Shown here: in pieces, positions 11,817 to 61,075 of the stretch | How the letters are laid out: every line of letters begins with the position of its first letter | Numbering within the stretch: position 1 is the first letter of the stretch | Source: a virus | Reading direction: 5' to 3' (one strand) | Length of the DNA stretch: 64,000 bases | IMG/VR virus record: IMGVR_UViG_3300025162_000041 | Location: 1 to 64,000 of that record | The notes under the pieces: model-generated | What the model was told of the DNA's origin: nothing | Seen by the model: the letters and a program-made list of their open reading frames with translations, nothing else | Databases searched by the model: none | Program-made: the position numbers and the translations under genes

Positions 11817-12127
11817 CTATTATACTTTGGATTTTAATAGCAATGGTGTTTTATGCTATTGGAGAATACAATAGTAAAGAATATGCCAATACGTTGCAAT
11901 GGCGTTATGGCGCAGTTGCAATGTTTGGTTACATGGTAAATGCTGTATGCTTTCTTCCTGCTATTTCCAAAATGAATTCCCTTACTGTATTGGGCACGAT
12001 ATGGAATTTAGGATATGTATTTGTTACTCTTTTTCTGGGACTTGTCATTTTTAAAGAACCAATATCAACAATGCAAATTGTAGGACTTTGTTTTGGCGTT
12101 GTCTCGATAATTTTACTTAGTATATGA
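11813..12127 (+). CDS. Small multidrug resistance (SMR/EmrE-like) membrane protein
   Basis: 104 residues with four hydrophobic segments (~2-18, 32-52, 58-76, 84-103), the size and topology of the SMR family (EmrE ~110 residues). The end, LGLVIFKEPISTMQIVGLCFGVVSIILLS, has the conserved Gly/Glu-Pro pattern of SMR and EamA helices. The usual N-terminal membrane Glu may correspond to the Glu of GEYN (~residue 18), with a different context. Overlaps by four bases on both sides place it in one operon with primase and gp47. A cargo function rather than a replication role is likely. Confidence 0.6.
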   Translation: MTIILWILIAMVFYAIGEYNSKEYANTLQWRYGAVAMFGYMVNAVCFLPAISKMNSLTVLGTIWNLGYVFVTLFLGLVIFKEPISTMQIVGLCFGVVSIILLSI

Positions 12128-12846
12128 TAAACACACTGAAAACAGACATCCCGAAATTTAGCCACGGTTTACAATTCGCCGACTGCCATATTCGTCTTAA
12201 TAAGCGGCACGATGAGTATAAAGAAGTATTTAATAATCTCTACGAAGAAATAAAAAAAACTCCAGAAACAACAGTCGTAGTATGTTGCGGAGATGTAATA
12301 CACTCAAAAATTGATTTATCTCCGGAATGTGTGCAGATGGCAGCAGATTTGTTTACAAATATAGCCAATATTAGACCGATGATTCTTATTGCAGGCAACC
12401 ACGATCAGCTTATTGCCAACAAAAGTAGGATGGATTCATTGTCGCCAATAGTGGATGCCTTGAATCATCCTAATCTATTTTATCTTAAAAAATCTGGTTT
12501 ATATGGATTCGGGAATATTCTGTTTAATAATATGTCGGTGGCAGATTCTCCTGAACAATATATCCTTGGCAAAGATATTCCCGCCATATATCGTAATCAA
12601 TATGAACACATTATTGCTCTATTTCATGGAGCCATAGATAATGCTGCATTAGATAATGGTTATGCTATTAAAAATCCTGTTATAATGCCGCCGTTGTTTA
12701 ATGGACACCATCTTGTTCTCGCTGGCGATATACATTTGGCTCAGAATATGAGTGTTGATAATGATGAGGTTATTATTCCCGAGTCCGATCTCGGAAAATA
12801 TAGCATGGATTTATGGGAAATTGTTGAAGAAATAGAAGAAAAATGA
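12124..12846 (+). CDS. gp47/SbcD-like nuclease subunit, N-terminal part of a split gene
   Basis: 240 residues carrying the calcineurin-type phosphoesterase motifs of Mre11/SbcD/T4 gp47: FADCHIRL (D-x-H), VVCCGDVIHSK (GD), ILIAGNHDQ (GNHD), LFHGA and LAGDIHLAQ (GDIH). It stops shortly after GDIH, where gp47 proteins normally continue with the capping region. That missing continuation (IRYCGSLIGQNHGE...IPNDYGYFTV) is found at the start of the protein at 13729. The last ~30 residues appear unrelated to the family. A homing nuclease gene lies between the two parts. Confidence 0.8.
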   Translation: MINTLKTDIPKFSHGLQFADCHIRLNKRHDEYKEVFNNLYEEIKKTPETTVVVCCGDVIHSKIDLSPECVQMAADLFTNIANIRPMILIAGNHDQLIANKSRMDSLSPIVDALNHPNLFYLKKSGLYGFGNILFNNMSVADSPEQYILGKDIPAIYRNQYEHIIALFHGAIDNAALDNGYAIKNPVIMPPLFNGHHLVLAGDIHLAQNMSVDNDEVIIPESDLGKYSMDLWEIVEEIEEK

Positions 12847-12896
12847 TGGTTTTGATGGATTAGATACTATTTATTGTTATAGCAAAATCATGGATT

Positions 12897-13766
12897 ATGA
12901 GAAGACTTAAAGACAAGAGCGGAAGGTTCATAGAAAATGCGACATGGATTGAACGAGAATGCATTGTGTGCCATAAACCATTCACTATTAAAGAGTCGGC
13001 ATTAAAATATAGACGGGGGAAATATTGCTCCCGTAAATGCTGTGACGAACATAAAAAGAAAATTTGTATTGGCAAAGGCAACGGATATTTTGGAAAAATA
13101 CTATCAGAAAAAGGACGGCGAATGCGGTCTGACATAACCGCAAAATCGTGGAAAATTCCCAATATAAGAAAATCAAGATTGGATGGTATTGAAAGATTTG
13201 TGTTGGAGCACGGATACCATCCGGGCGCTGATGAAAAATCAAAGGAAAAGAGAAAGCATACATTCACCTTACGTTATGGAGTTCCACACAATTGGATGGT
13301 TAAGGAAGTCCGTAAAAAATGCAATGACACTTGTATCCTACGTTATGGGAAATCCATGTGGCAGTTGATGATGGAAGCACTAAAATTTCACCAAACCGAA
13401 ATAGAAATAATTACTAAACGAATACTGGATGACAATGGTATTACATATAAGCCACAATTTCAGTTATGGGATGGCGGGAATATTCGTATTTATGATTACT
13501 ATATCCCATCTTCTAATTTACTTATTGAATTAGATGGTGACTTTTGGCACGCAAATCCAATCAAATATCCAAAGGAAAAGTTGCTGGAAGTACAAAGAGC
13601 GAATATTCTCAATGATGAGTATAAAACAAACCTTGCCAAGACCAGTGGATATAAGATAGAAAGATTCTGGGAAACCCGAATAAAACTTCCCGATTATCCT
13701 CAACTTCTTCTCCATACAATAAAACAATATGAAAATGTTACGCCTACGAAAGAGAACGAGTCCTAA
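12897..13766 (+). CDS. Vsr-like (EDxHD-type) homing endonuclease splitting gp47
   Basis: 289 residues. N-terminal four-Cys zinc motif (CIVCH...CSRKCC), a middle HTFTLRYGVPHNW and CILRYGKSMW repeat region, and a C-terminal nuclease core with YDYYIPSSNLLIELDGDFWHANP (D...IELDG-FWH), then KTSGYKIERFWE. The pattern matches Vsr-fold homing enzymes such as I-Bth0305I. It sits exactly between the two halves of gp47 and overlaps the second half by 38 bases. No group I intron core was recognised around it. It presumably cuts the uninterrupted gp47 gene. Confidence 0.7.
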   Translation: MRRLKDKSGRFIENATWIERECIVCHKPFTIKESALKYRRGKYCSRKCCDEHKKKICIGKGNGYFGKILSEKGRRMRSDITAKSWKIPNIRKSRLDGIERFVLEHGYHPGADEKSKEKRKHTFTLRYGVPHNWMVKEVRKKCNDTCILRYGKSMWQLMMEALKFHQTEIEIITKRILDDNGITYKPQFQLWDGGNIRIYDYYIPSSNLLIELDGDFWHANPIKYPKEKLLEVQRANILNDEYKTNLAKTSGYKIERFWETRIKLPDYPQLLLHTIKQYENVTPTKENES

Positions 13767-16317
13767 AATAAGATACTGTGGGAGTTTAATTGGTCAGAAT
13801 CATGGCGAAGGATTAGAGGGACATGGATACTCTCTATGGGACTTATCTGATTATTCTTATACACATCATGAAATTCCTAATGATTATGGTTATTTCACAG
13901 TGGATATTCAGAAGGGAAAACTTACCACTGATTTGACGCATTTGCCTAAAAAGGTACGTCTTCGTATGAAGTGTTACGAGAGCGTAGCTTCAGAAGTTAA
14001 GCAAGTTCTTGCGGACATTAAGATGAAGACACAGGTCATCGAGACAGCCTACGTTCGCATGGACCAAGAGCAGGATAAGAAAGACATTATCCCATTGTGC
14101 AAAGATATTGTACTTGCCGACTTGACTACGGTGGAATATCAGGAAAAGCTTCTAACAGAGTTTTTGACGAAAAAGCTTGGGATTAGTGATCCATCAAAGA
14201 TTAAAGAGATTCTGAAAATCAATAAGGCTACGAATGCTCTTATCAAACGCGATGATTTCTCTCGTAACCTTAAATGGAAACCCATAAAAATGGAATGGTC
14301 AAATACTTTTACATACGGGGAAAATAACATAATCAATTTTGAAGATATGCATGGGGTTTACGGTATTTTCGGTCCCAACAAGTCGGGTAAATCAAGTATA
14401 TTGGATACGTTAATATTTGTGTTATTTGACAAAACGTCCCGTTGTTATAAAGGTATGCATGTCCTGAATGTTCAGAAATCAAGTTTTCAATGTAAATTGG
14501 AGTTTGAAATTTCGGGAGTGCGTTACTTTATCGAGCGTAAGGGTAGTACTACTCGTTCGGGCAATGTCAAAGTAGATGTTCGATTCTGGAAGATAGTCAA
14601 TGGAATTGAGGAAGAACTTCACGGTACCGTGCGCCGAGACACCAATGATATTATCCGTGACTACATTGGAACTTATGAGGATTTCATAATTACTGCTGCT
14701 TCATTCCAGAACGCCAAGAATTTCACATCATTCATTGATATGGGCAATAGCGAGCGTAAAGACTTACTAGTGCAGTTCATTGGTCTTAATGTTTTTGATC
14801 GTCTGCATGAGTCTGCGGGAGAGCGTAACAAGGAACTTGTGACTATTCTTAAGACTCATAAGGATAAGAATTATCAACTTGAAATCCAACAAAATGCGGC
14901 GGCGTTATCCCGTGAGGATACTCTCTTTTATTCGGCCAATCAGGAAGTTGAAAGTTTGAAGAAGCAAATTTCCGAAGTAAATGAACAAATCATTGCTGAA
15001 AGTGCCAATATTATTAAGCTAGACACAAGTGTTCCGACAGACCTTTTATTGTTAGAGACCCGAAAACAAAGTGCAGAATCCATTCTTGCAGCTAAGCGCA
15101 AAACAATTACAGATGCCCGAGACACCTTAATGACCCAAGAGAAGAAATTGTCGGAAATTAATGATGGGATTGATAAAATTGAGAAATCGAATTTTGTGGA
15201 AGCTTATAAAACCCATAAGGAACTTTCCGACAAACTTACTGTTTTTAAGCAGAAAATTGATCTCAAAAAGGTGGAAGTCAAAGGAAAACTTGAAAAGGTG
15301 GAACGTTTGAAGAACCATAAGTATGACCCCAATTGTAAGTTTTGTGTAAATAATGATTTTGTCAGAGACGCAACCAAGGCAAAGAAGGAATTGGTCGACG
15401 ACAAGAAAGAGACCGATAAGATGATGGCCGATGTTATGAACATTCGGGGAGACCTAGATGTTTATAAGTGGGCTGAGAATACATATGAAACCTACACTAA
15501 ATTGCTAACGGAGCGTGGAATAGTCAAGGACAAATGTTCAGAGGCGAGCAAGCGCATCATTATTGCTACTAATGAACTTGAACGATTGGATACTGCCGCC
15601 AAGGCAGTCAATCAACAAATCGAAATTTACCACCGTAATGAAGTGGCGGTAGATAATAATGTCAAGGTTCAATCAAAAATCAATGTTTTTCGGTCCACAC
15701 TAACCAAGTTTGATATTGTGTTTCAGAAGCAGCATCAATCTCTTATGAATATTTCGGGTAAACGTGAATTGTTTCGTTCTACTATCGAAATGGTCAAGAA
15801 AACCCTCGAAGAAGTCTTGGCGATGGAAACTGAACTTGGTCTTTATCAGAGTTACTTACAAGCAATTGGAAGAGACGGAATACCTTATCAAGTAATTTGT
15901 AACACTGTCCCCGAGATTGAAAAGGAAGTCAATTCCATCCTCAGCCAAGTGGTGGACTATACCATTCAGTTTGAGACTGATGGGAAGAACATAGTACCTT
16001 ATATTTGTTATTTCGACAAAGGAAAATGGCCGATTGAATTGTCGTCCGGATTTGAACGGGATTTGGCGTCCATAGCAATCAGAATTGCGCTTACCGAGGT
16101 CTCTAATCTTCCAAGATGTAATTTTTGTGCTATTGACGAATCCTTCTCGACGCTTGACGCAAATAACCTTGCTACGATGCCAACCCTATTTTCTATACTA
16201 AAAAATTATTATGACTTCGTACTAGTTATTTCGCATCTGTCTGAATTGAAGGATGCCACTGACAAGACCATAGAAATAACTCACGAAAATGGGTTTGCGA
16301 AAGTAGTATACGAATAA
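13729..16317 (+). CDS. gp47 C-terminal part fused to gp46/SbcC-like ATPase
   Basis: 862 residues. Residues ~12-60 (SPKIRYCGSLIGQNHGE...WDLSDYSY...IPNDYGYFTV) are the cap part of gp47. A linker of ~120 residues follows, then an SMC/Rad50-like ATPase: Walker A GPNKSGKSSIL (~residue 215), coiled coil, a zinc hook CKFC (~residue 535), second coiled coil, signature LSSGFERD, Walker B CAIDESFSTLDA and a VISHLSEL H-loop. The gp46-gp47 complex resects DNA ends for recombination-dependent replication. The ATG overlaps the homing gene. An uninterrupted ancestor would have encoded one gp47-gp46 polypeptide. Confidence 0.8.
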   Translation: MKMLRLRKRTSPKIRYCGSLIGQNHGEGLEGHGYSLWDLSDYSYTHHEIPNDYGYFTVDIQKGKLTTDLTHLPKKVRLRMKCYESVASEVKQVLADIKMKTQVIETAYVRMDQEQDKKDIIPLCKDIVLADLTTVEYQEKLLTEFLTKKLGISDPSKIKEILKINKATNALIKRDDFSRNLKWKPIKMEWSNTFTYGENNIINFEDMHGVYGIFGPNKSGKSSILDTLIFVLFDKTSRCYKGMHVLNVQKSSFQCKLEFEISGVRYFIERKGSTTRSGNVKVDVRFWKIVNGIEEELHGTVRRDTNDIIRDYIGTYEDFIITAASFQNAKNFTSFIDMGNSERKDLLVQFIGLNVFDRLHESAGERNKELVTILKTHKDKNYQLEIQQNAAALSREDTLFYSANQEVESLKKQISEVNEQIIAESANIIKLDTSVPTDLLLLETRKQSAESILAAKRKTITDARDTLMTQEKKLSEINDGIDKIEKSNFVEAYKTHKELSDKLTVFKQKIDLKKVEVKGKLEKVERLKNHKYDPNCKFCVNNDFVRDATKAKKELVDDKKETDKMMADVMNIRGDLDVYKWAENTYETYTKLLTERGIVKDKCSEASKRIIIATNELERLDTAAKAVNQQIEIYHRNEVAVDNNVKVQSKINVFRSTLTKFDIVFQKQHQSLMNISGKRELFRSTIEMVKKTLEEVLAMETELGLYQSYLQAIGRDGIPYQVICNTVPEIEKEVNSILSQVVDYTIQFETDGKNIVPYICYFDKGKWPIELSSGFERDLASIAIRIALTEVSNLPRCNFCAIDESFSTLDANNLATMPTLFSILKNYYDFVLVISHLSELKDATDKTIEITHENGFAKVVYE

Positions 16318-19001: not shown

Positions 19002-19136
19002 GGTTTTAGGATATTTCATTCTATATTTACATTCTTGGAGTCAGAAAGCCCCTTCGGCTTTAGCCAAGGGGATGAATGACGACCATATTAAGGAAATAAA
19101 AATAAAATGACATTTTCCTTAAAGTCAATGATATGT

Positions 19137-20282
19137 ATGTCCGTGAATGTAAAACGAAACTACAAGTTTAGGTTGTCTCCCAAAGGAGGAACGCTGACCC
19201 GTCTTGAACAGACGAGAGAAACTTGTCGCTACGTCTATAACCAACTCCTTGAGAAGCGAAACGACCACTATGAGAAAACCAAGAAGACACTCACTCATTT
19301 TGATTGTTGTAAAGTGATTAAGGAGATGGAACTGAAAACTCCAGTCCATTCCCAAGTCCTCCAAAACGTATCTGCACGACTTGACCTTGCCTATCTTGGG
19401 TTCTTCCGTAGGTTGAAGGATAAGACAGGTAAAGCAGGATTTCCACGATTTAAGTCCTATGACCGATATGACTCATTCACTTTTCCACAAACGGGTTTTA
19501 AGTTGACTCCAAAGAAACTTTGGATGTCCAAGATTGGTGATGTTCGGATTAACCTCCACCGCAAAATGGAAGGTAAGATTAAGACCCTGACCATTAAACG
19601 TGAAGGCAATCATTGGTATGCTATTTTCTCATGTGAGGTTGAGATTAAACCAGAAGTTAAGAAGTGGAAACGAGCAGTTGGTATTGACGTTGGATGTATT
19701 GACTTTGCCACTTGTTCCGATGGGACGATCATTTCTCATCCTCATTTCTTACGACAATCTTCCGAGAAACTTTCCAAAATCCAAGGTAAGTATTCCAAAC
19801 TAAAAAAGAAACCAAGGGATGATAAGCAGAAGATTAAGACCAAGAGAGCATTGGTATCGGTTCATTGCAAAATAAAGAACCAACGAAAAGATTTCCTACA
19901 CAAGTTGAGCAAGAAGTTCGTAAGCGAATACTCTCATATTTGCGTGGAGGATATTAAACCAAGTCAGATGTTGAATGACAACTGGCGAAGTTTGAATAAG
20001 AGCATATTGGACTCAGGATGGACTACGTTTAGACAAATGCTACATAGCAAAGCGGTAGATGCTGGTTGTGAAGTGAATGACGTAAATCCTGCCTATACGA
20101 GTCAGATGTGTTCTGGTTGTGGCAACATTGAGATAAAGAAACTCTCTGATAGGCAACACAAATGTAATCTTTGTGGATTGGACATTGGAAGAGATTTGAA
20201 TGCTGCACGAAACATTTTAAGAGTCGGAATGGACTCTTTTGCTTCCAAAAGAAGCATGGAAGCCCCTATCCCTTTAGGGTAG
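19137..20282 (+). CDS. tnpB: TnpB RNA-guided nuclease, catalytic residues intact
   Basis: About 381 residues from ATG at 19137 (MSVNVKRNYKFRLSP); further in-frame starts exist at 19107 and 19128. RuvC-I VGIDVGCIDFATC (Asp), RuvC-II HICVEDIKPSQM (Glu), a zinc ribbon CSGCG...CNLCG, and RuvC-III DIGRDLNAARNIL (Asp) are all present. The family cuts double-stranded DNA next to a short TAM, guided by the omega-RNA from the 3' end of the element, and helps retain the element at its locus. The guide for this copy would be the flank after 20294 (TCATGTGAAAGG...). Confidence 0.9.
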   Translation: MSVNVKRNYKFRLSPKGGTLTRLEQTRETCRYVYNQLLEKRNDHYEKTKKTLTHFDCCKVIKEMELKTPVHSQVLQNVSARLDLAYLGFFRRLKDKTGKAGFPRFKSYDRYDSFTFPQTGFKLTPKKLWMSKIGDVRINLHRKMEGKIKTLTIKREGNHWYAIFSCEVEIKPEVKKWKRAVGIDVGCIDFATCSDGTIISHPHFLRQSSEKLSKIQGKYSKLKKKPRDDKQKIKTKRALVSVHCKIKNQRKDFLHKLSKKFVSEYSHICVEDIKPSQMLNDNWRSLNKSILDSGWTTFRQMLHSKAVDAGCEVNDVNPAYTSQMCSGCGNIEIKKLSDRQHKCNLCGLDIGRDLNAARNILRVGMDSFASKRSMEAPIPLG

Positions 20283-20315: not shown

Positions 20316-20960
20316 ATGTATAAAGGCAAGACAAACATAGAAATTGTAAAAAGTTATTTGGAAGGAGAAAAGTTATTTCCTGTATTCGGTTATACTGGCA
20401 AAGAATACGTCAAACGAGCCATAGGAGAGCGTTGGATTGATAAATCGAATCAAGAGTGGGAGCAGAAGGCAGGTGGCCCTCAGAAGATCAATAGGGTGGC
20501 AAATATCGTGCGTGCGGCTATTGGCAATCAAAAATGCCGATGTGGTCAACAAATTCGGTGGGGTACTAAATTAGATAGATTATTTTTTAACAAAACTGGA
20601 TTATGTGAAGGATGCCTCATTGATTATGAAACTAAATTACGTGTGTTGGGTATTTACAACGATTACGAGAAATACAAACTAGCTTCCAATGAACTTGGAC
20701 ATGTCAAGGACATGAAAACCAAAATCCGCGAGACAATTAAGTATTTCGAGTCCGATGACACCGACGTTAAGATGCTGTGTAATTCCGAAGGGTTCGTGGA
20801 GAGATGGAGGACAACCAATATCGAAGATATTCTTAAAGATGCCAGGAAAGATTTGAAGGAGGCTCATCAACGTATTGTTGCGCTAGTGAGAATTCGGGAC
20901 GAACAAAAAGTAAAGTATATCGAGGCTTGCGCCAAATATAAATTGGAAACTATATGCTAG
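20316..20960 (+). CDS. Unknown protein preceding terminase, candidate small terminase subunit
   Basis: 214 residues, basic and mainly helical, with a possible zinc site (CRCGQQ then CEGC, residues ~75-105) and a C-terminal helical region rich in Lys, Glu and Arg. It overlaps the large terminase gene by seven bases, the place usually held by the small subunit (T4 gp16), which recognises DNA and stimulates gp17. No helix-turn-helix was clear, so the assignment rests on position. AAAGGAAGAACGTT-ATG gives a good ribosome-binding site just after the tnpB right end. Confidence 0.45.
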   Translation: MYKGKTNIEIVKSYLEGEKLFPVFGYTGKEYVKRAIGERWIDKSNQEWEQKAGGPQKINRVANIVRAAIGNQKCRCGQQIRWGTKLDRLFFNKTGLCEGCLIDYETKLRVLGIYNDYEKYKLASNELGHVKDMKTKIRETIKYFESDDTDVKMLCNSEGFVERWRTTNIEDILKDARKDLKEAHQRIVALVRIRDEQKVKYIEACAKYKLETIC

Positions 20961-23785
20961 ATGGAAAAATCTCCTATCAAGACCTAATCCGAGAGGAATA
21001 TAAAAAGTGCTTAGAGTCACCAGTGTACTTTATGAAGCAGTATGTCAAAATCAAACACCCAATGCGGGGTACGATTCTTTTTGACTTGTTCAAATTCCAA
21101 GAGGAAACTCTACAAGCTTTTCACGATTATAAGTTCAATATTATCCTCAAATCCCGACAAATGGGTATTTCAACCCTTGTTGCTTCGTATTCCTTATGGC
21201 TGATGATTTTCCATAAGGATAAGACTGTTCTTTTGATTTCGTTAAAGCAAGATGATGCCAAAGATGTTTTGACTAAGGTTCGGGATGCTTATAAAGAACT
21301 TCCCAACTGGCTCAAGATTCAATGTAGCGAAGATAATCGTCTGTCCATTCGGTTTTCCAATGGCTCGCGCATTCAAGCTGCCTCTACTACGAAAAAATCA
21401 GGTGTAGGTCAAGCCCTTTCTCTTCTGATTATTGATGAAGCTGCACTCATTGAAGATGCCGAAGACCTGTGGACATCTGCACAACCAACATTGTCAACCG
21501 GTGGAAACGCCATCGTTCTTTCAACCCCCCGAGGAGTAGGAGGATGGTTTCATAAAATATGGCAGGGCGCATCCGATGATAACCAAGATGGCACCGTAGG
21601 GAGAAATGGATTCCATCCTATTACTCTCCCGTGGCAGCTTCACCCCGAACGGGACGATGAATGGCGCAGAATTGAAGGCGAAAAACAAGGTAATCCTAAA
21701 AAGGCGTCACAAGAATATGACTGCAATTTCCTCTCATCTGGTGATAACGTCGTTGACCTCAATATCATTGAGTTCTATAAGAAAAATAAGGCGTGTGATC
21801 CTGTAGAATGTCGGGGCATGGGTAAGAACCTATGGATTTGGGAGTATCCTGATAGAAGTCATGTCTATGTTGTATGTTTGCCATCTGGAGAATCGGTATT
21901 AACAGAAATGGGGGTTAAAAGAATAGAAGATGTGACTTATGAGGATAAGCTCATTGATAAGGATGGTTATATTACAAATATCGAGGATATAAAGGTTAGA
22001 CTATATAACGGGAAAATATATGAAATAACTCCTTCCAATACATTTCGAACAACAAAATTTACAGATGAACATCCGATTTTTGTAAGTCAAACTTCCAAAT
22101 TAAATAGGATGTATAAAAAGGATGATATAAATTATAGGTTTAATCAGAGATATTGGGAACATGATTTTAAGTTTGTAGATGCCAAAGATGTAAAGAAAAA
22201 TGATTGGATACGTTTTCCAAACATTTATACAAAAAATAAACTGGATAGTTTAAGTATAATGTGGAAAGAGTTTGAGAATATAGGAAGAATTGATTTTCAA
22301 ATTAAAGATAATCCATTTTTGAATGAGGATTTTTGGTGGTTTGTTGGTATTTGGTTGGCTGAGGGGTGGTGTTATACAGATAAAAGCGGAAATGTTACAA
22401 TTCATACGGCACATAACTCAAGCGAAACTATTATTATAAATAAATTGCGACGTATTGTTTTTGATCTGTTTGACAGAACTTTGCTTGTTATGCCAACAGA
22501 AAATAATACAACTGTATGTCAATTTGGATCTAAACAAATCGGGACGTTGTTAGAAAAATATTTTGGAAAGTATGCTGGAGGAAAGTTTATCTCGGAACGC
22601 ATAAAATATATCTCTCAAAATGAGAAAATACAATTGATCAATGGATATATTGCCGGAGACGGATGTGTTTTAGCTAATAAGCGAGGAGCAAAATCTATAA
22701 AAATAACATCAATATCATTAAGATTACTAGAAGATATTCAAGATATGCTATTTTCATTAGGATGTGTTTCTTCTCTTAATTTATTGCGGGTAAAAAAACA
22801 AGCGAAGATAAGAGAAAAAAATATAAACCAAAAACAAGCATATTCGTTAACTATTTCGGATTATGGATGTAAATGTTTAATATTAGGGCATTTGCCAAAA
22901 TCTAAATCTCAACGAACGGCGGATTGTTATTTAAGCCCGGATAATCAATATATTTATTTTCGTGTAAAAAAAGTAAAAGAGATGTTTTATTGTGGGGAGG
23001 TTCATAATTTCACGACAAAATCTGGTACTTTTTTGTGTGAAAATATAACCACTCATAATTGTGCCGATGTAGCCCGTGGCGATGGCGCTGATTATTCGGC
23101 ATGTCATGTTTTAGACATCAGTAGAGAAAAACCAGTCCAAGTCGCCGAATACAAGGGTAAAATTAGTACTAAAGATTTTGGTGATTTTCTTGTAGCATTA
23201 GCAACTGAGTATAATAGCGGTTTGCTCGTGATTGAACGTGAAAATGTTGGATGGGGCACTATTCAAGAAGTTCTTGATCGGGGTTATCCAAATACTTTTT
23301 ATAGTTCCGCAGACCTTAAGTATGTTGAAGTTCAACGTCAACTGAATAATAATTGGGCCGCCGAGGACAAAAAACTTGTCCCAGGATTCAGCACAAACGT
23401 CAGAACTCGTCCTCTCATAGTTGATAATATGGAGCATTACATGCGACATATGGCTGTTGAAATTCGCTCAAAACGCACCCTTGCAGAACTAGAGACCTTC
23501 GTTTGGAAGAATGGTAAACAAATCGCAATGGAGGGCTACAACGACGACTTAACGATGGCTCTCTGTATTGGTTTGTGGGTCCGTGATACAGCCCTTCGCT
23601 TACGTCAAGAAGGAGTCGAATTAACTAAGATTGCTGTAAGTGGAATGACTAAAGATAAAATGGATCAAACACCATTCTATAAAGTGAAACAAGCCCAGAC
23701 AGGCCATAATGCGTGGACAATGAATACGGGACGCCAAGGCTTCGGCAAACAAAATCAAGAGGATTTACGTTGGCTTATCGGCTAA
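20954..23785 (+). CDS. terL: Terminase large subunit (gp17-like) with an intein
   Basis: 943 residues, of which 308-702 are an intein; the spliced protein is 548 residues. The ATPase has KSRQMGISTLVA (Walker A, ~residues 66-77), LLIIDEAALIE (Walker B) and VLSTPRG (coupling motif). The nuclease has ADVARGDGADYS (first Asp), LLVIERENVGWG (Glu) and GYNDDLTMAL (Asp), matching D401, E458 and D542 of T4 gp17. The motor packages concatemeric DNA into the prohead through the portal and cuts it. The intein sits one residue before the first nuclease Asp motif. Confidence 0.92.
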   Translation: MLDGKISYQDLIREEYKKCLESPVYFMKQYVKIKHPMRGTILFDLFKFQEETLQAFHDYKFNIILKSRQMGISTLVASYSLWLMIFHKDKTVLLISLKQDDAKDVLTKVRDAYKELPNWLKIQCSEDNRLSIRFSNGSRIQAASTTKKSGVGQALSLLIIDEAALIEDAEDLWTSAQPTLSTGGNAIVLSTPRGVGGWFHKIWQGASDDNQDGTVGRNGFHPITLPWQLHPERDDEWRRIEGEKQGNPKKASQEYDCNFLSSGDNVVDLNIIEFYKKNKACDPVECRGMGKNLWIWEYPDRSHVYVVCLPSGESVLTEMGVKRIEDVTYEDKLIDKDGYITNIEDIKVRLYNGKIYEITPSNTFRTTKFTDEHPIFVSQTSKLNRMYKKDDINYRFNQRYWEHDFKFVDAKDVKKNDWIRFPNIYTKNKLDSLSIMWKEFENIGRIDFQIKDNPFLNEDFWWFVGIWLAEGWCYTDKSGNVTIHTAHNSSETIIINKLRRIVFDLFDRTLLVMPTENNTTVCQFGSKQIGTLLEKYFGKYAGGKFISERIKYISQNEKIQLINGYIAGDGCVLANKRGAKSIKITSISLRLLEDIQDMLFSLGCVSSLNLLRVKKQAKIREKNINQKQAYSLTISDYGCKCLILGHLPKSKSQRTADCYLSPDNQYIYFRVKKVKEMFYCGEVHNFTTKSGTFLCENITTHNCADVARGDGADYSACHVLDISREKPVQVAEYKGKISTKDFGDFLVALATEYNSGLLVIERENVGWGTIQEVLDRGYPNTFYSSADLKYVEVQRQLNNNWAAEDKKLVPGFSTNVRTRPLIVDNMEHYMRHMAVEIRSKRTLAELETFVWKNGKQIAMEGYNDDLTMALCIGLWVRDTALRLRQEGVELTKIAVSGMTKDKMDQTPFYKVKQAQTGHNAWTMNTGRQGFGKQNQEDLRWLIG
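21875..23059 (+). mobile_element. Intein in terminase, LAGLIDADG type
   Basis: 395 residues. It begins with Cys (CLPSGESVLTEMGV) and ends with THN before Cys+1 (CADVARG), as in a class 1 intein. Block B is TKFTDEHPIFV. The homing endonuclease shows the two LAGLIDADG helices FVGIWLAEG and LINGYIAGDG. Block F is MFYCGEVHNF. The insertion point is within the most conserved part of the terminase nuclease site, so removal must be exact and an unspliced protein should not cut DNA. Confidence 0.9.
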
Positions 23786-23843: not shown

Positions 23844-26800
23844 ATGCCAACAAATACTAACATGTCGCTCAAGCCATTCGACGATGAAATACTCGATGTA
23901 AAAAAACAGTCGCTATATGCAAGATTAAAAAGACTGTTTTCTACAGACGTTATCGTGCGTAACGTCGGCGGTAAACAACTGAAAATAAAAGATACCGATA
24001 GCATTATGTATGCTACGGATAGAAATAGTCTACGAGACCGCTTTAATCGTATCCGTAGCACAGCCTATAATGCTTATACCCGTGACTTCGCCCTGTCATA
24101 TCAAGCCGCAAGAATGGACTTGTTTCGTGACTACGATTGCGTAGGGCCAGATACAATTATTCCACTGCCAGATGGGTCAAGACCTACTATTAAGGAGTTA
24201 ACAGAAAAATATAAAGATAAGCCGCAGGAACGATTTTATGTGTTTTCTTATGACCACGAAACCGATTCAATTAAACTTGGTCGTGCGTTTCATCCTAGAA
24301 AGAAAGGCGGCGGAACTAGAGAAGGATTTAAAGTAACTTTTGATGATGGACAATACGTTATTGGAAGTATTAAACATCCATTCTTAATGCGAAATGGCGA
24401 GTATAAGATGATTTATGATCTTAAAGTTGGTGATTCAGTGATGCCGTTTTATCAAAAGGATTTTTATGGTCATGGTTATAGACATTTGTATAATTTTAGT
24501 AGGGGCTGGCAATCTGAACATAAAATTGTAGCAGAACAATTTGAAAGACCATTAAAAGAGAATGAGGTGGTTCACCATAGAAACTTTAATAAAACCAACA
24601 ATTCCCCCGATAATCTTCAGATAATGATAGAGTCGGAACATAAAGCATATCATTGTAAAATCATTGCGGATAAATTGTGGTCACCAGAAAATAAGCAAAA
24701 AACTATAAACAAGGTTCAAGCATCAGAGGGATATAAGAATAGAAAATGTCATAAATGGAATGGTGAAAGACAAGGAGGAAATAATCCGTTTTATGGAAAA
24801 ACTCATACCGAAGAATCTAATGAAAAACGTTCAAAAACACTAAAAGAAGTGTTTGTAAATAGAGATCAAAACGGGAATAAAAATCCAAAATATAGAAAGG
24901 ATTTAACTATAGAAGTTCTGAGAATAAAAGCGAACGAATACTATAAAAAGAATGGTAAATTGACTTTATGGGGACTTATAAAGGATATAGGATGTGATTA
25001 TACGACTATTCAAAATAGGTTTAGATATTATAATTGTGATTGGGATACATTCAAAAATGATGTAGTTTCTACTTTGAATCATAAGATCAAATCTATTGAA
25101 TCCATTGGTCAAATAGATGTATATGATGTTACAGTTGAACAGTTTGCGAACTTTGCTACTGATAGTGTTTTCGTAAAAAATACAATGGACATGGACCCGA
25201 TCCTAAGTTGCCTATCTGGAGACACTTGCATATCGACGTTAAATGGGTTTGTTCCGATAAAAGAGTTGGCGGAGAAATATTCGGGAGATGAAACATTTAA
25301 AGTATGGTCGTGGGATAAAGATAGTCAAAAGTTGACAGTGGGAAATGCTCATCATCCCAGAAAAACAGGAACTAAAAGTGTAATAGAAGTACATTTGGAT
25401 AATAGAGAGGTATTAAAATGTACTTCTGACCACAGAATAATGTTAGTTGATGGAACATATAAAGAAGCTGGCCAACTGATGAGCGGAGACTCATTGATGC
25501 CTTTTTATCATAGGCAAAATCGAAATGGGTATCAAGAAATAAAATCTTTGGGAAAACGATTTAAATGTACACATCGTTACATTTTTGAAGATGTTCTAAC
25601 CGAACAAGATTTGGTCGGCAGTAACATTCATCATAAAAATCATAATAAGTTAGATAACAGGTTGGAGAATTTGGAATTGATGACGGCGCTTGAACACATG
25701 AGGTTACACGGCATTTCTCCTATAACTAAAGGGAAAAAATCTATAAATTCAAAGGAGTGGTGGGAAAATTTAGAATATAGAACCAAATGTTCTGGTGCGT
25801 TAAAAAAATATCAAGCATCTGACGAAGGGAAGAAAATGATGTCAGAACATACGTCGCTTATCAATACAGAACGATGGAAAAATGATTCCGATTATGCATT
25901 AAAAATGGCATCCATATTTTCCGAACATGCAAAGTCAATGTGGAGTGATCCTGTGTGGAAAGAATGGAAACGTAAAAAACACTCTGAGACAATGCGATTG
26001 AAATATGCGAATGATCCGATTTTTAGAGAACAAATAAAACGAGTGGGGCATGAAAATGGACGATACAAAGATTTAGTTACTACGGAATCTATTTTAATAG
26101 AGGGAACAAAATATAACTCGTTAGTAGAATTTGCAAGAATCTTTGACTTCAACGGACTTGTATTTAAGAACGACCAATATAAATGCCAATTCATATCACG
26201 AAGATTGAAAGAAGCGGGGTATGATGGATGGACCGATTATAGAAATAAATTCGAATATTCTAATCACAAAGTAACGAAGATTGTCGATAACAATGAAGTT
26301 GTGGATGTATATGATTTGACGGTAGATATATACGAAAATTTCGCGATTAAACAAGGTATAATTTTGTCGAACAGTGCATTAGATATTTTTTCAGACGAAT
26401 GCCTTACGTATAATGAAGTAGGCAAGATGATTACTGTTCACTCGACCAACAACAATGTCAAGCGAATTCTTGAGAATTTATTTGATGAGATTCTCAATGT
26501 TCGGTTTAATTTATGGTCATGGACTCGCAACATGCCAGTGAAGTATGATTCTTATATTCCATTATTGTCGGGTGAAAATATAAGAATAGATGAGTTGTCT
26601 AAGAGAGTAAAATCCGGAGAGGAAATATGGGTATATTCTGTTCAAGATGGAACCAATCAAACTGTGCCTGGCAAAGTAATTTGGTGTGATAAAAATTATA
26701 TATCGGATAAAACAATAAAAGTAATATTTGACGATAACTCATATGTAGAAACTGCACCCGAACATCCTTTTATATTGCGAGATGGCCAAGAAAAACGAGC

Positions 26801-29669
26801 GGAGGAACTTAAGGAAAATGACAGTTTAATGCCATTTTATAGAAAATTAAGTCCTGAAAAGGGTGGAATGAATAAATATGAAATGGTGTATAATCCACGG
26901 TCTAATAAACATGAATATACGCATCGGGTTGTTGCGGAATCCTGCGGAATAAAAACCGACAAAACGAATAGAATTTTACACCACAAAAATTTTAATAAAT
27001 ATGACAATTCGCCCATAAACTTAGTTCCGATGGAGTTTTTTGAACACCGCAATCTTCATTCTGAACATTGTATTAAAACTCTACACACCCCAGAAGTCAT
27101 TGAAAAAAGAAGAAAAAGTTTGGATAAATATCTTCGTTCAAATGATAGGAAAGAAAGACTTAGTAGAGAAATGAAGGGGGTAAAAGTAAAGTATTTTCAA
27201 GATTATAATAACTCGGACTTACATGCTATCCATAACGAAATACGGTCAAAATTAAAAACTGAAATGTGGGCAGACCCGTCTCGTAGAGCGGTAGCAATCG
27301 GAAATATGAAGATGGGGTGGACTCCTGAACGCCGAGAGTTAGCGAGTAAGAGAATGAAGGAATTTAGAAAAAATGGAGTTTTAACAAATCATAAAGTAAA
27401 ATGTATTGAAATAATAAATGAAAATACTGATGTATACTGTATGACTGTCGTTGGTCCTGGTGGGGAACAGGATAGACACAATTTTGCTATATGCGGAAAG
27501 GATATGGAAGGAAACATAACCAAAACTAGTGGCGTATTTATTAAAAACTGTAAATATGGTGATTTTTTCTTAAAACTATATATTACACCCGAGTATGGTA
27601 TTTACATGGTCGAGCCAATTTCGGCTTACAATGTAGAACGGATTGAAAATTCTGATCCTACTAATAAGCGATATGTCAAGTTCCAACTTCGTCCTTCGGA
27701 TACATCACAGGCTGAAATTCTTGAAAATTATGAAGTAGCTCATTTTCGACTTATTTCCGATTCGAATTTTTTGCCCTACGGCAAGTCGATGATTGAAGGT
27801 GGAAGGAGGGTATGGAAGCAACTTTCACTCATGGAAGACGCTATGCTTATCAGTCGTATCATGCGTGCTCCTGAAAGACGTATTTTCTATACTGATATTG
27901 GCAATATTCCGCCGAATGAAGTGGACGCTTACATGCAGAAAATGATGGATAAGATGAAGAAAGTGCCATATATTGATGAGCAAACGGGCGAATACAATCT
28001 TCGATTTAACCTTCAGAACATGATTGAGGATTATTATATTCCAGTTCGTGGTGGTGATAGTGGAACTAAGATTGATTCATTACCTGGAATGGAATGGACG
28101 GGTATTGACGATCTTGAGTATATCAAGACGAAGATGATGGCAGCACTTAAGATTCCAAAAGCCTTTTTAGGATATGACGACGCAATAGCAGGTAAAGCTA
28201 CTTTGGCTTGTGTTGTTCCCGAGACACGAGTACCTTTGCTCAACGGACTTACAAAAACAGTAAAAGAACTAATTGATGATTATAACAACGGTATAAAAAA
28301 TTATGTTTATTCCATTGATGAAGAAACCAAAAACATTGTTCCGGGTGAAGTAGAATGGGCAGGATTCACTAGAATGGATACTGATGTTGTGCGAGTTTAT
28401 TTGGATAATACACAATATATTGATTGCACTTCTGACCATCGTTTTATGACGAGAGATGGCAATTGGCTGGAAGCCAAGGATTTAGTGGAAGGACAATCAT
28501 TAATGCCATTATATAGAAAAAATCAAATAATGCGTAAAAAACTGGATTATGAAATGGTTTATAATCCCTCTGCGGGGCGACCAAGGGCGGTTAAAAACCA
28601 TAAAGTAATAAAAATAGAACTATTATCCGAAAGAAGAGATACGTGTGACATAACAATAAAAAAGTATCATAACTTTGCAACTTCGGCGGGAGTTATTGTC
28701 CACAATTCGGAGGATGTGCGATTTGCTCGTACTATTCAACGTTTACAACGTATTATTACATCAGAACTTAGCAAGATTGCTATTGTTCATTTATATGCTC
28801 AAGGTTACCGTGACGAATCGCTTGTTGATTTTGAACTTGAACTGACTAATCCATCGACCATTTTCGAGAAGGAGAAGCTTGAAATTTGGCAGGATAAAGT
28901 GAGTGTATCCATTGATATGGTAGAGAACAAGTTTTTCTCTTATAAATGGATTTACAAGAATATATTCAATATGTCTGAAGACGACATTGAGCAAGTGCAA
29001 GAAGAAGTTGTTGAAGATGCCAAGCAGCGTTATCGTTTCACCAAGATTGAAGAGGATGGCGATGATCCAGCCAAACCATTCAAGAAGATAGGTGGAAAGG
29101 GTGACGGGGATGATAAAGATAAAGGTGGTCTTGGAGGTCTTGACATTGGTGGTGGAGGCGGTGGTGGAGGCGGTGGTGGAGGCGGTGGGCTTCCAGATCT
29201 AGATGACCTTGGCGACATTAGCCCCGAAGGTGGGGAAGGAGAAGAAGGTGAGGAGGGAGAGGGCGAAAAAGAAGAAGAACTTCCCGACCTTACGAAAATT
29301 AAGGAAGTTGTAGAAGACACGCGTGATCGCAGTGATAGGGATCAAAGTGACCGAGATCAAAGTGACCGACACCAAGATGGTGAAAAGAAAGCTCCTAATA
29401 CAACAGAAGATCCAATTGGTCGTCTTGAACGTTCTGCAACACCAAAGAAAAAGAGCGAGGGAAAGAGAGTTAGTGCCATTCAACATAATTACGAAGGTGG
29501 CACTCCATTGCGCTTACGTGAGAGAGCATCTCCACCTATAGATAAGGGTATGATTAGTAGTCTTTCTGACTTCCTTAAAAAGACTCAGCCAGAGACCAAA
29601 CAAGAACTCTTGCGAGAGAATCAATTGACGAGAAGCAAGTCTATGTTAGATGAAACTCAATTGCTATAG
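23844..29669 (+). CDS. Portal protein (gp20-like) carrying four inteins
   Basis: 1941 residues; the four inteins make up 1240, leaving a 701-residue portal. Extein segments match T4 gp20: MDMDPIL...SALDIFSDECLTYNEVG, NLFDEILNVRFNLWSWTRNM, KYGDFFLKLYI, and SEDVRFARTIQRLQR in the crown/clip part. The portal is the dodecameric ring that nucleates head assembly and passes DNA. The C-terminal ~170 residues are unusual: a run of 14 glycines, an acidic Glu/Gly stretch and repeated D-R-D-Q-S units, then a basic tail. The start is ATG at 23844; ATG at 23862 (MSLKPFDDE) is possible. Confidence 0.9.
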   Translation: MPTNTNMSLKPFDDEILDVKKQSLYARLKRLFSTDVIVRNVGGKQLKIKDTDSIMYATDRNSLRDRFNRIRSTAYNAYTRDFALSYQAARMDLFRDYDCVGPDTIIPLPDGSRPTIKELTEKYKDKPQERFYVFSYDHETDSIKLGRAFHPRKKGGGTREGFKVTFDDGQYVIGSIKHPFLMRNGEYKMIYDLKVGDSVMPFYQKDFYGHGYRHLYNFSRGWQSEHKIVAEQFERPLKENEVVHHRNFNKTNNSPDNLQIMIESEHKAYHCKIIADKLWSPENKQKTINKVQASEGYKNRKCHKWNGERQGGNNPFYGKTHTEESNEKRSKTLKEVFVNRDQNGNKNPKYRKDLTIEVLRIKANEYYKKNGKLTLWGLIKDIGCDYTTIQNRFRYYNCDWDTFKNDVVSTLNHKIKSIESIGQIDVYDVTVEQFANFATDSVFVKNTMDMDPILSCLSGDTCISTLNGFVPIKELAEKYSGDETFKVWSWDKDSQKLTVGNAHHPRKTGTKSVIEVHLDNREVLKCTSDHRIMLVDGTYKEAGQLMSGDSLMPFYHRQNRNGYQEIKSLGKRFKCTHRYIFEDVLTEQDLVGSNIHHKNHNKLDNRLENLELMTALEHMRLHGISPITKGKKSINSKEWWENLEYRTKCSGALKKYQASDEGKKMMSEHTSLINTERWKNDSDYALKMASIFSEHAKSMWSDPVWKEWKRKKHSETMRLKYANDPIFREQIKRVGHENGRYKDLVTTESILIEGTKYNSLVEFARIFDFNGLVFKNDQYKCQFISRRLKEAGYDGWTDYRNKFEYSNHKVTKIVDNNEVVDVYDLTVDIYENFAIKQGIILSNSALDIFSDECLTYNEVGKMITVHSTNNNVKRILENLFDEILNVRFNLWSWTRNMPVKYDSYIPLLSGENIRIDELSKRVKSGEEIWVYSVQDGTNQTVPGKVIWCDKNYISDKTIKVIFDDNSYVETAPEHPFILRDGQEKRAEELKENDSLMPFYRKLSPEKGGMNKYEMVYNPRSNKHEYTHRVVAESCGIKTDKTNRILHHKNFNKYDNSPINLVPMEFFEHRNLHSEHCIKTLHTPEVIEKRRKSLDKYLRSNDRKERLSREMKGVKVKYFQDYNNSDLHAIHNEIRSKLKTEMWADPSRRAVAIGNMKMGWTPERRELASKRMKEFRKNGVLTNHKVKCIEIINENTDVYCMTVVGPGGEQDRHNFAICGKDMEGNITKTSGVFIKNCKYGDFFLKLYITPEYGIYMVEPISAYNVERIENSDPTNKRYVKFQLRPSDTSQAEILENYEVAHFRLISDSNFLPYGKSMIEGGRRVWKQLSLMEDAMLISRIMRAPERRIFYTDIGNIPPNEVDAYMQKMMDKMKKVPYIDEQTGEYNLRFNLQNMIEDYYIPVRGGDSGTKIDSLPGMEWTGIDDLEYIKTKMMAALKIPKAFLGYDDAIAGKATLACVVPETRVPLLNGLTKTVKELIDDYNNGIKNYVYSIDEETKNIVPGEVEWAGFTRMDTDVVRVYLDNTQYIDCTSDHRFMTRDGNWLEAKDLVEGQSLMPLYRKNQIMRKKLDYEMVYNPSAGRPRAVKNHKVIKIELLSERRDTCDITIKKYHNFATSAGVIVHNSEDVRFARTIQRLQRIITSELSKIAIVHLYAQGYRDESLVDFELELTNPSTIFEKEKLEIWQDKVSVSIDMVENKFFSYKWIYKNIFNMSEDDIEQVQEEVVEDAKQRYRFTKIEEDGDDPAKPFKKIGGKGDGDDKDKGGLGGLDIGGGGGGGGGGGGGGLPDLDDLGDISPEGGEGEEGEEGEGEKEEELPDLTKIKEVVEDTRDRSDRDQSDRDQSDRHQDGEKKAPNTTEDPIGRLERSATPKKKSEGKRVSAIQHNYEGGTPLRLRERASPPIDKGMISSLSDFLKKTQPETKQELLRENQLTRSKSMLDETQLL
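24138..25181 (+). mobile_element. Portal intein 1, HNH endonuclease type
   Basis: 348 residues (portal residues 99-446). It starts Cys (CVGPDTIIPLPDGSRP) and ends FVKN before Thr+1 (TMDMDP). Block B is IGSIKHPFLM, and an HNH-type nuclease follows with VVHHRNFNKTNNSPDNLQ and EHKAYH. NFATDS and FVKN form blocks F and G. The penultimate residue is Lys instead of the usual His. Confidence 0.88.
25209..26372 (+). mobile_element. Portal intein 2, HNH endonuclease type
   Basis: 388 residues (portal residues 456-843). It starts Cys (CLSGDTCISTLNGFVP) and ends ILSN before Ser+1 (SALDIF). Block B is CTSDHRIMLV. The nuclease shows NIHHKNHNKLDNRLENLE and EHMRLHG. Block F is VVDVYDLTVDIYENFA. It is separated from intein 1 by only nine portal residues (TMDMDPILS). 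The penultimate residue is Ser, not His. Confidence 0.88.
26535..27548 (+). mobile_element. Portal intein 3, HNH type, starting with proline
   Basis: 338 residues (portal residues 898-1235). The portal reads WTRNM, then PVKYDSYIPLLSGENIRIDE, and resumes at CKYGDFF; T4-type portals have WTRNM directly followed by x-KYGDFF. The first residue is therefore Pro rather than Cys or Ser. Block B is VETAPEHPFIL, the HNH part ILHHKNFNKYDNSPINL and EHRNLH, and block F is DVYCMTVVGPGG, with Cys at the position often held by Asp. It ends FIKN before Cys+1. Confidence 0.82.
28209..28706 (+). mobile_element. Portal intein 4, mini-intein without endonuclease
   Basis: 166 residues (portal residues 1456-1621). 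It starts Cys (CVVPETRVPLLNGLTK), has block B DCTSDHRFMTRDG, block F RRDTCDITIKKYHNFA and ends VIVHN before Ser+1 (SEDVRFA). No HNH or LAGLIDADG motif is present; a short basic linker replaces the nuclease. It is the only one of the four portal inteins with the canonical penultimate His. Confidence 0.88.
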
Positions 29670-31911: not shown

Positions 31912-32790
31912 GTGATACCTTCTCTTAAACGAATTGTAGAGTCCTATGGAGCCGAGGGTCAGTATTATGACCTTGGTAAGGATTTTTCTGCATTTCGTAG
32001 AATGATTGATGGTGCTGATCAGCAAGTCAAGCAGCAATATGAGAAACAAATTGCGTCTAAACTTGTAGGGAAACGTGTTCGGGCAAATGCTTCGCGGGGG
32101 TATAAGCAGTTTATAAAAAGTTATGAGTTTGATGTTGTCCGAGTCACATTGGATGATTACTATGATAACTTTGTAGTAATAGCCTATGATAGTACGACTC
32201 CAAAACCAAAGGAATATTTTCTTAAGACGGGGTTCAAAATTCAGATTCTCGGACCTGCTACAGGGCAACCTTCTCCGCAAAAGGGAGGAGACCCTCGCTT
32301 CGAGAAGCCCAAACAGGTTGGTCCAATGCCCATTCAACCTGGACAGAATCCTAATGTAGCTCAATCACAGCCTATGGCATTAGCACCAGCGGGAGCAACT
32401 CCGAAAGAGACTCCGATGGAAGAAAATAAAGAGCAAGATGGACTTTATGATGCTTATGGAATGGATGAAATTTCTCAAGACATCAAAAGATGGATGCCAA
32501 AGCTGCTTAAGAAGCCAGAAACTCAACTACGTGAGTTTATTAAAGGGCTTGGATGGAAGAAGAATCTCGATAAAGGAACTACGGTGGCATTATTCGATTT
32601 AAGAATTCCTTCCATTATGGTTAAGCCTAACAATAATGAGCAAACCATTCGGGATATGCTTGCACAAGAGAGTGCGAACCCAAGGCCGGGGGAAAAGGCG
32701 GGAACACGGTATGAATTGGTTAAATGTGAACCCGACCAAGAAAAAGGCGAATGGACTGTTCGCATAAAGAAAGTAATCTCACAAGTATGA
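31912..32790 (+). CDS. Unknown head-module protein
   Basis: 292 residues starting with GTG after TAAGGA. The opening MIPSLKRIVESYG is an amphipathic helix with an IVE-S site of the T4 prohead-protease type. A basic globular part (~30-115) is followed by a Pro/Gln-rich linker (~118-170) and a C-terminal domain of ~110 residues. The stop overlaps the prohead protease start (ATGA), implying coupled translation. It may be an internal or core head protein; this is inference from context. Confidence 0.45.
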   Translation: MIPSLKRIVESYGAEGQYYDLGKDFSAFRRMIDGADQQVKQQYEKQIASKLVGKRVRANASRGYKQFIKSYEFDVVRVTLDDYYDNFVVIAYDSTTPKPKEYFLKTGFKIQILGPATGQPSPQKGGDPRFEKPKQVGPMPIQPGQNPNVAQSQPMALAPAGATPKETPMEENKEQDGLYDAYGMDEISQDIKRWMPKLLKKPETQLREFIKGLGWKKNLDKGTTVALFDLRIPSIMVKPNNNEQTIRDMLAQESANPRPGEKAGTRYELVKCEPDQEKGEWTVRIKKVISQV

Positions 32791-34526
32791 ATACACAAAA
32801 GAAACTCTTAATGGAATGCATTACGTTTGAAGCAAATCCACGAATGCTTCGAGAGTCAACATTGCATCCTAATCAGCCGTTTACGGTACAGGGGGTTCTG
32901 CAACGCAAAGGCAAAAAAAATCAAAACGGACGTATATATCCCGACGAGATTCTTATTCGTGAAGCCAATAAATATGCTCAGACGTTCATCCAAGACCATC
33001 GTGCTATGGGGGAATTAGATCATCCAGAATGTTATCGGGTTGGTGCAGAAATATTTACGAATAGTGGATGGAAAGATTTACGAAATGTGGTTGTTGGTGA
33101 GTTAATACCAACGTTGAATACGGTTACGAATACCATAGAATATAATCCAATTGAGCGAGTTATAAATGAACAATATAACGGTAAAATGGTATCTATTAAA
33201 GGAAAAAATATAGATATTCTAGTTACTCCAAATCATAGATTTATTCTACAAACTAGATCAGATAGAGAACAACAAGTTATAGAAAAAACTGCCCAAGAAA
33301 TATTGAACATTTCTAAATTAACAAGAAATACACATTTATCCATTCCTATCGTAGCGGAAAATTGGAATGGATATAAGTATGATATCTATAAAATAGATGC
33401 TATTAATATTGAGGACATTGCCAATAATCAATCAAAAGATTATAATATTAAACAAACCACGGCACTTAATTTAGATGCCTCAGCATGGTTTTCGTTTCTT
33501 GGATTTTATTTGGCAGAAGGACATTGTTCGGATAGAACAAATCGGAACGGTTATGAAATATTTATTACGCAAAATAAGGGAGAAATAGCAGATAAGTTTA
33601 GAGAAGTATTGCATAATTTGAGTTCCGAATTAAAATGGAATGAGTGGGATAAAGGTGATAATGCAATTACGTTTAATACTTCTGATGCCCGTTTATGGAC
33701 ATATCTTTCCAAATTGGGAACTAAATATACTAAATATATTCCGCAAGATATAAAGAATGCTTCGTCTGAGTTATTGCAAAATTTGTATGATTGGTTTCTT
33801 AATGGAGATGGTTCAGTGGTCGGAGATTATGAAAGGACATCTATATTTTCTGTATCTAAAAAACTGATGGAAGATTTTTATGATGTTATCCTTAAACTCG
33901 GAATGACAGGTGTTATTAAAGAACAAATAACAACTGATGATTATATGTTTGCGGGACGATTGATTGAGGCAAAAAATAAATCTCCATTATATCGTTTATG
34001 GATTAAAGAATCAAAAGCAATTCATCTTGATTTCAGGTTTATAAAAATCGAAGAAGTGGATTATGATAGCACTGTTCATTGTGTTACTGTAAAAAATGGA
34101 ACATTTTATTGTCGGGATCATGGATTCCCTTTCTGGTCTGGAAATTCATCGGTTGTCAACCTGAAGAATGTATCCCATAATGTGCTCGAAATGCATTGGA
34201 ATGGCGATGATCTTATGGGAACTATTGAAATTCTTACGACTCCGAATGGCAACATTTTGCGTGAGCTATTTCGCAATGGTATTAAGCTTGGAATTTCAAG
34301 TCGTGGACTTGGAACACTCAAGAAAATTTCTGAAAGTTCAGCCGTTGTTGGTGATGATTTTGAATTGATTGCGTTTGATTTTGTCTCAAATCCGAGCACT
34401 CAAGGAGCATTTATGTCTCCCGTAGGTCAAATTCCACTTTCCGAGGGTATTGTAAAAGACATGTTTACGGGGAAGTGGGCACGAACCGATGATATAGTAA
34501 GAAATATCTTGTCCGAATTAAATTGA
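32787..34526 (+). CDS. Prohead protease (gp21-like) with an intein
   Basis: 579 residues from ATG at 32787, which overlaps the upstream stop. Without the intein it has 207 residues, close to T4 gp21 (212). NGRIYPDEIL, MGELDHPE (catalytic His) and LGISSRGLGTL (catalytic Ser) match the herpes/T4-type maturation protease. The enzyme digests scaffold and trims capsid proteins at I/L-x-E sites. The intein is placed two residues after the catalytic His, splitting the active site until splicing. Confidence 0.9.
   Translation: MNTQKKLLMECITFEANPRMLRESTLHPNQPFTVQGVLQRKGKKNQNGRIYPDEILIREANKYAQTFIQDHRAMGELDHPECYRVGAEIFTNSGWKDLRNVVVGELIPTLNTVTNTIEYNPIERVINEQYNGKMVSIKGKNIDILVTPNHRFILQTRSDREQQVIEKTAQEILNISKLTRNTHLSIPIVAENWNGYKYDIYKIDAINIEDIANNQSKDYNIKQTTALNLDASAWFSFLGFYLAEGHCSDRTNRNGYEIFITQNKGEIADKFREVLHNLSSELKWNEWDKGDNAITFNTSDARLWTYLSKLGTKYTKYIPQDIKNASSELLQNLYDWFLNGDGSVVGDYERTSIFSVSKKLMEDFYDVILKLGMTGVIKEQITTDDYMFAGRLIEAKNKSPLYRLWIKESKAIHLDFRFIKIEEVDYDSTVHCVTVKNGTFYCRDHGFPFWSGNSSVVNLKNVSHNVLEMHWNGDDLMGTIEILTTPNGNILRELFRNGIKLGISSRGLGTLKKISESSAVVGDDFELIAFDFVSNPSTQGAFMSPVGQIPLSEGIVKDMFTGKWARTDDIVRNILSELN
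33030..34145 (+). mobile_element. Intein in prohead protease, LAGLIDADG type
   Basis: 372 residues. It starts Cys (CYRVGAEIFTNSGW) after GELDHPE and ends FWSGN before Ser+1 (SSVVNLK). Block B is ILVTPNHRFIL. The endonuclease helices are FLGFYLAEG and WFLNGDG. Block F is STVHCVTVKNGTF. The penultimate residue is Gly rather than His. The exteins join to a continuous gp21-like sequence. Confidence 0.88.
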
Positions 34527-34551
34527 CATTTTGACTTTGTTGCGATATAGT
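34523..34551 (+). promoter_or_regulatory. Sigma70-type promoter of a homing nuclease gene
   Basis: TTGACA (34523-34528), 17 bases, TATAGT (34546-34551). It overlaps the stop of the protease gene and precedes the ATG at 34573 by 21 bases. Confidence 0.6.
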
Positions 34552-34572
34552 ATAAGCAATAAAGTCAAAATT

Positions 34573-61000: not shown

Positions 61001-61075
61001 TAAATTGCCGCTATCAATCGGCAATAATAAAATAACTTGATGTTTTATTGTTTTTGACTTATATTGAAAGGTAAT

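Follow-up and report, generated by a model that had tools for sequence, protein, structure and literature searches.

A homing endonuclease gene lies within a broken gp47-gp46 fusion gene of a phage, between pieces with oppositely charged ends

The 64,000-nucleotide stretch of viral DNA analysed here (the window) carries three consecutive reading frames on the plus strand, all of them intact, between positions 12124 and 16317. The first (12124-12846; 240 aa) is the N-terminal piece of gp47 (Mre11/SbcD), hereafter piece 1, which matches Metallophos at E 1.8e-10 and contains all of the metal-ligand motifs through GDIH (12724-12735). An intercistronic spacer without an Rfam match (12847-12896) separates it from a homing endonuclease of 289 aa (12897-13766; PHROG homing endonuclease, E 1.1e-14). 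Piece 2 (13729-16317; 862 aa) starts inside the 3′ end of the nuclease gene, giving a 38-nt overlap, and encodes the end of the gp47 nuclease domain and the cap, followed by a complete gp46 (Rad50/SbcC); its cap segment, IRYCGSLIGQNHGE, starts at 13768 (IRYCGS). Piece 1 has its own stop and piece 2 its own start, with the nuclease ORF between them. No clear Shine-Dalgarno sequence was seen before piece 2, which counts against the explanation preferred below. Matches in Pfam, PHROGs and NCBIfam are to Metallophos/SbcD, homing endonuclease and SbcC/Rad50, respectively. ORF coordinates and domain matches agree that gp47 is broken just past GDIH with the nuclease gene in the gap, as a preliminary description of this DNA had it, and the Rad50/SbcC match within one 862-aa frame bears out its reading of piece 2 as the C-terminal part of gp47 fused to a Rad50-like ATPase. 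That description had the break and the nuclease right; the acidic tail of piece 1, the basic head of piece 2 and the recurrence of the break elsewhere had gone unnoticed.

The window nuclease has a Cys-rich, Zn-finger-like N-terminus, DUF7487 repeats and a putative Vsr/EDxHD-type catalytic domain (DYYIP...IELDGDFWHANP). The homing endonuclease assignment is strong; the Vsr relationship of its earlier designation is tentative and comes from weak matches (Pfam Vsr at E 0.0064 and TIGR00632 at E 6e-4, both below the curated cut-offs) together with the motif IELDGDFWHANP, which is conserved among the relatives of the nuclease. It resembles I-Bth0305I (EDxHD) in an apparently related catalytic domain and an extended DNA-binding region, but that enzyme is described among those of mobile introns (PMC3943268), whereas the window nuclease has no detectable intron. 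The window nuclease shares 38% identity with that of locus L126 over residues 10-279 and 31.5% with that of L098 over 260 aa. These nearest relatives occupy exactly the same gp47 junction, and when viral contigs were scanned with the window and L098 nucleases as a pair, the three best matches all lay at that junction.

A search of IMG/VR with piece 2 recovered close relatives, about 70-80% identical, in which both pieces belong to a single unbroken chain of about 1068 aa; gp47 and gp46 are fused in every close relative found. When the window's pieces were aligned with these fused homologues, both were covered by a single frame, with piece 1 being 67-77% identical. Because the close relatives encode both pieces as one uninterrupted protein, the single-chain gp47-gp46 ancestor that had been proposed for this locus is well supported. 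Such a fusion is present in a cultured phage as well, in the record of Microcystis phage Mel-JY01. Mre11-Rad50 fusions were already known, Bacillus phage 0305phi8-36 being among the carriers named in the relevant part of PMC3175470; the proteins treated there have the same domain order in one chain as the window's relatives, and in that part of the source they are described unbroken and with no homing nuclease mentioned. In the fused close relatives a short loop of about 20 aa follows GDIH. By alignment with them, the window does not hold a bare nuclease insertion, since the short loop is replaced by an arm, a stop, the nuclease, a start and a second arm. The idea that a nuclease split the gene thus stands in so far as a nuclease lies between the pieces, and falls short in that arms have also been added relative to the short loop.

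The first arm is the acidic C-terminal tail of piece 1, NMSVDNDEVIIPESDLGKYSMDLWEIVEEIEEK (12745-12843), with a net charge of -9, which was aligned with the tails of nine other split alleles. The second is the basic N-terminal head of piece 2, MKMLRLRKRTSPK (13729-13767), with a net charge of +7 when the next three residues are included. Across the ten split alleles compared, piece-1 tails are nearly invariant at E-x-x-[IV]-x-E-x-x-[LI]-x-x-Y, and all ten combine an acidic tail (-4 to -10) with a basic head (+1 to +7). Against a tail profile built with the window left out, the window tail was matched or beaten by 5 of 5000 random frames and 34 of 5000 shuffles. The corresponding figures for the window head were 1 and 16 of 5000 against a profile that combined split heads with fused long loops; with split heads only the match was weak (60 of 5000 random frames and 825 of 5000 shuffles), which counts against the preferred explanation. 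Of 1347 adjacent gene pairs, 4 have a tail of -4 or below next to a head of +5 or above, and split alleles may themselves be among the four; a charge screen of nuclease-flanking genes confirmed no further arm-type pair.

Both arms also occur uninterrupted in one chain, in the long-loop fused proteins of L056, L054, L057 and L061. The AlphaFold2 model of the L056 protein, whose top Foldseek hits are Mre11:Rad50 and Mre11/SbcD structures, places in this block (pLDDT 86-91) a strand (215-219), two helices (220-226 and 230-234), a strand (235-238), a turn and a further strand (246-251). The window break corresponds to the turn of this predicted hairpin. Modelled alone, the window tail gave low confidence, as expected with its partner absent. 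The oppositely charged, conserved ends probably clip the split enzyme back together. A crude pooled count in the L098 clade gave a dN/dS of about 0.15-0.19 for the arms, which indicates that in this clade the split and its arms persist under purifying selection. L054 and L059 were considered as a clean pair differing in the presence of the arms and were set aside, as L054 is a recombinant in which the whole gp47 half differs (DNA identity of about 58% there, mostly 90-100% in gp46).

Searches with alignments of the pieces recovered the same gp47 break with a nuclease of the window's family in L098/L100 and L126, and with a TnsA-like nuclease of a different family in L028 (LR756508, 484 kb). 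The break occurs without a nuclease in L084, L089, L095, L097, L105 and L081. Counting these loci, at least three phage lineages besides that of the window have the gene broken at this site. Candidate stretches encoding relatives numbered 590 of 600, and among the best 80 of these 590 loci, not all of which are distinct phages, the gene is fused in 58 and split in 19. In the gp46 and gp47 trees alike, the four alleles that are split and carry a nuclease occupy four separate positions, with the window nested within short-loop fused phages. Two further arrangements were seen at this junction: in L081 (8001-8900 and 9443 on) gp47 is split at the same site, the cap is a small gene of its own and gp46 is separate, and in L274 (5541-5990) a different small ORF occupies the site.

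The preliminary description had named homologues sharing the break without the insert as evidence that would refute its reading. Such homologues exist, and they are of two kinds. In L208/L209 the nuclease is internally deleted, in L214 and L105 just its last 14-19 codons remain, and the flanking arms are kept in each; with these scars retained, the loci can be read as survivors of nuclease loss. In L231 the nuclease is gone entirely and the arms are again kept. Together with L098, these alleles form an apparent decay series within one clade, running from L098 through L208/L209, L214 and L105 to L231. The other kind is free of both nuclease and scar: in L084/L095 and L089/L097 the stop of the first gene and the start of the second overlap as ATGA or TTGA. 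Some of the splits may therefore have arisen without a nuclease.

Around the window insert, markers of the L006/L007/L037 type form an approximate tract (12274-13885) flanked by sequence of the L001/L011 type (Fisher p ~1e-9, on informative sites with bins set by hand). This foreign-marker tract brackets the insert as co-conversion during homing would leave it, and co-conversion of flanking DNA is expected with homing, according to the section of PMC2988022 on this subject. Two observations count against the preferred explanation here: the window's allele was seen in one contig only, and a donor of its insert was not found among the sequences searched.

We consider it reasonably probable, from comparative sequence evidence, that a homing cassette splits the fused gp47-gp46 gene, that its complementary arms serve non-covalent reassembly, and that the split outlives the nuclease. 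In such a scheme, a Vsr/EDxHD-type homing endonuclease would occupy the site just past GDIH of the fused gene as part of a mobile unit larger than the nuclease itself. The 5′ arm would give piece 1 its acidic strand-helix-strand tail and a stop codon, and the 3′ arm would give piece 2 a start codon and a basic strand. The cassette would have entered the window phage by homing, with co-conversion of the flanking DNA. The two polypeptides would be made separately, the second from a start that overlaps the nuclease gene, and would dock through their arms, rebuilding the hairpin that other phages carry unbroken and restoring the gp47-gp46 nuclease without splicing. After later decay of the nuclease, the split would stay as a two-subunit enzyme. 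The sequences themselves show that the ancestor was fused, that the gene is broken at a site which recurs, that the arms are conserved, that the nuclease decays in a series and that a foreign tract surrounds the insert; homing activity, docking and retained function are what we infer from the arrangement. More tentatively, and with somewhat less confidence than doubt, the charge-complementary arms that flank the nuclease gene may travel with it between unrelated phages. The cassette would then be the equivalent of a split intein, but without splicing, and could lead to permanent gene fission after decay of the nuclease.

The split may alternatively be older than the nuclease and independent of it: a simple overlap of stop and start would have broken a gene that already had both arms, at the turn of the hairpin, and nucleases would have settled in the gap later. 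The clean ATGA/TTGA alleles without a nuclease scar would fit such a history, as would the uninterrupted long-loop alleles and the fact that the nuclease of L028 belongs to a family unrelated to that of the window, L126 and L098, yet lies in the same gap. We regard it as unlikely, although in the deepest split clade the nuclease may have come before or after the break. In both trees the window is nested among short-loop fused phages, and no close relative of it with a split, arm-bearing, nuclease-free gene was found; in addition, the remnants in L208/L209, L214 and L105 show nuclease loss after occupation. It is more improbable still that a recent insertion has inactivated gp47 and left its pieces decaying. 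The confinement of the allele to a single contig and a break that cuts off the cap and some of the nuclease domain would be in keeping with lost activity, but all three frames are intact, the window arms match conserved arms elsewhere, and in the L098 clade such arms evolve under purifying selection.

Two further readings would have the pieces joined by splicing. That the insert is an RNA-spliced group I intron with the nuclease as its ORF seems very improbable, even though phage nucleases of this kind can be intron-encoded (PMC3943268) and the insert is located in a conserved region. Searched against Rfam, the window insert showed no group I intron at a threshold as loose as E 5, and at gathering thresholds the L126, L098, L100, L028 and L105 loci matched neither a group I intron nor any other family; moreover, the nuclease gene reaches the 3′ edge of the insert, and the pieces have their own stop or start together with conserved arms. 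A split intein that joins the pieces now, or did so formerly in a fractured gene, is hardly credible. Split inteins do occur at the P-loop of the same gene family (L013 and L069), and the beginning of the piece-1 tail, SVDNDEV, superficially resembles an intein N-block. However, a domain search of the window pieces matched neither the N nor the C part of an intein, and upstream of IRYCGS the open frame of piece 2 extends over only about 15 codons, which leaves too little length for a C-intein. The candidate suggested by L013, in which the tail (SVDNDEV...) would be a Ser1 intein N-fragment, was rejected, since the tail aligns with non-intein tails and no C-intein was found.

The parallel that had been drawn with nrdA of phage Aeh1, split by mobE, extends to the nuclease between the pieces, the terminal extensions and the second start overlapping the nuclease gene. 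To our knowledge, Aeh1 NrdA is the one worked-out case of a fragmented enzyme reassembled by tails gained with a mobile nuclease. Those tails are reportedly needed for assembly, a result attributed to Crona and colleagues in 2011, and tail-mediated reassembly has been suggested to be general. In a 2009 study cited in PMC10448857 and PMC3653736, Dassa and colleagues reportedly described a family of Vsr-like nucleases together with genes fractured by split inteins; as in the window, the target there is split by a nuclease of a Vsr-related family, but those genes have intein halves whereas the window has none, and its reassembly would be non-covalent.

In Aeh1, as in the window, a free-standing homing nuclease splits an essential phage gene (Friedrich et al., 2007), both pieces bear extra terminal sequences, and the second start overlaps the nuclease gene, by 14 nt in Aeh1 and 38 nt here. 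The Aeh1 genes, fetched for comparison, encode a basic C-terminal tail on NrdA-A (about +6) and an acidic N-terminal one on NrdA-B (about -10). The charge order is therefore reversed, the first piece being basic in Aeh1 and acidic in the window, and the likeness drawn here is one of opposite charges on the two tails. Aeh1 also differs in its target gene and its HNH nuclease, and it is a single case, whereas the gp47 site recurs and has a decay series. Other phage genes split beside homing nucleases are T4 topoisomerase 39/60 with mobA and 43A/43B of Aeromonas phage 25, whose products co-purify and are active; these involve other genes and other nuclease types, and conserved arms are not mentioned in the part of PMC2988022 that covers them. 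Several phage lineages appear to have arrived at the Aeh1-type solution at one and the same active-site position, and among them are intermediates in which the nuclease decays and the split stays. These alleles offer a natural series for testing how selfish genes cause stable gene fission, and the arms form a set of candidate natural split-protein tag pairs.

Several other mobile elements were seen. In L013 (5666-6980; also in L045 and L124) and L069 (9190-9830) a split intein breaks a gene of the same fused family at the Rad50 P-loop; the N-half is unusually short (29 aa), and L013 has a GIY-YIG nuclease between the two halves, with none seen in L069. A phage CCA-adding enzyme is interrupted at its EDPLRILR motif, between the PolyA_pol head domain and the RNA-binding domain, by a related Vsr/DUF559-type nuclease in L140 (2887-4953), L143, L146 and L151; the second piece starts about 21-24 nt inside the nuclease gene, and there are no obvious arms. 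The window phage itself is rich in homing genes. Genes of the GIY-YIG (9877) and T5orf172 (10528) types lie just upstream of the split locus, and three more large nucleases with a similar repeat and EDxHD-like architecture are found at 34531-36273, 39509-41137 and 61064-62848. One apparent intein each is present in the terminase large subunit gene (20954-23785) and a prohead-protease-like gene (32751-34526), and apparently four in a gp20-like portal gene (23844-29669), the third seemingly without the usual Cys at position 1. An IS605 OrfB/TnpB-like gene lies at 19107-20282.
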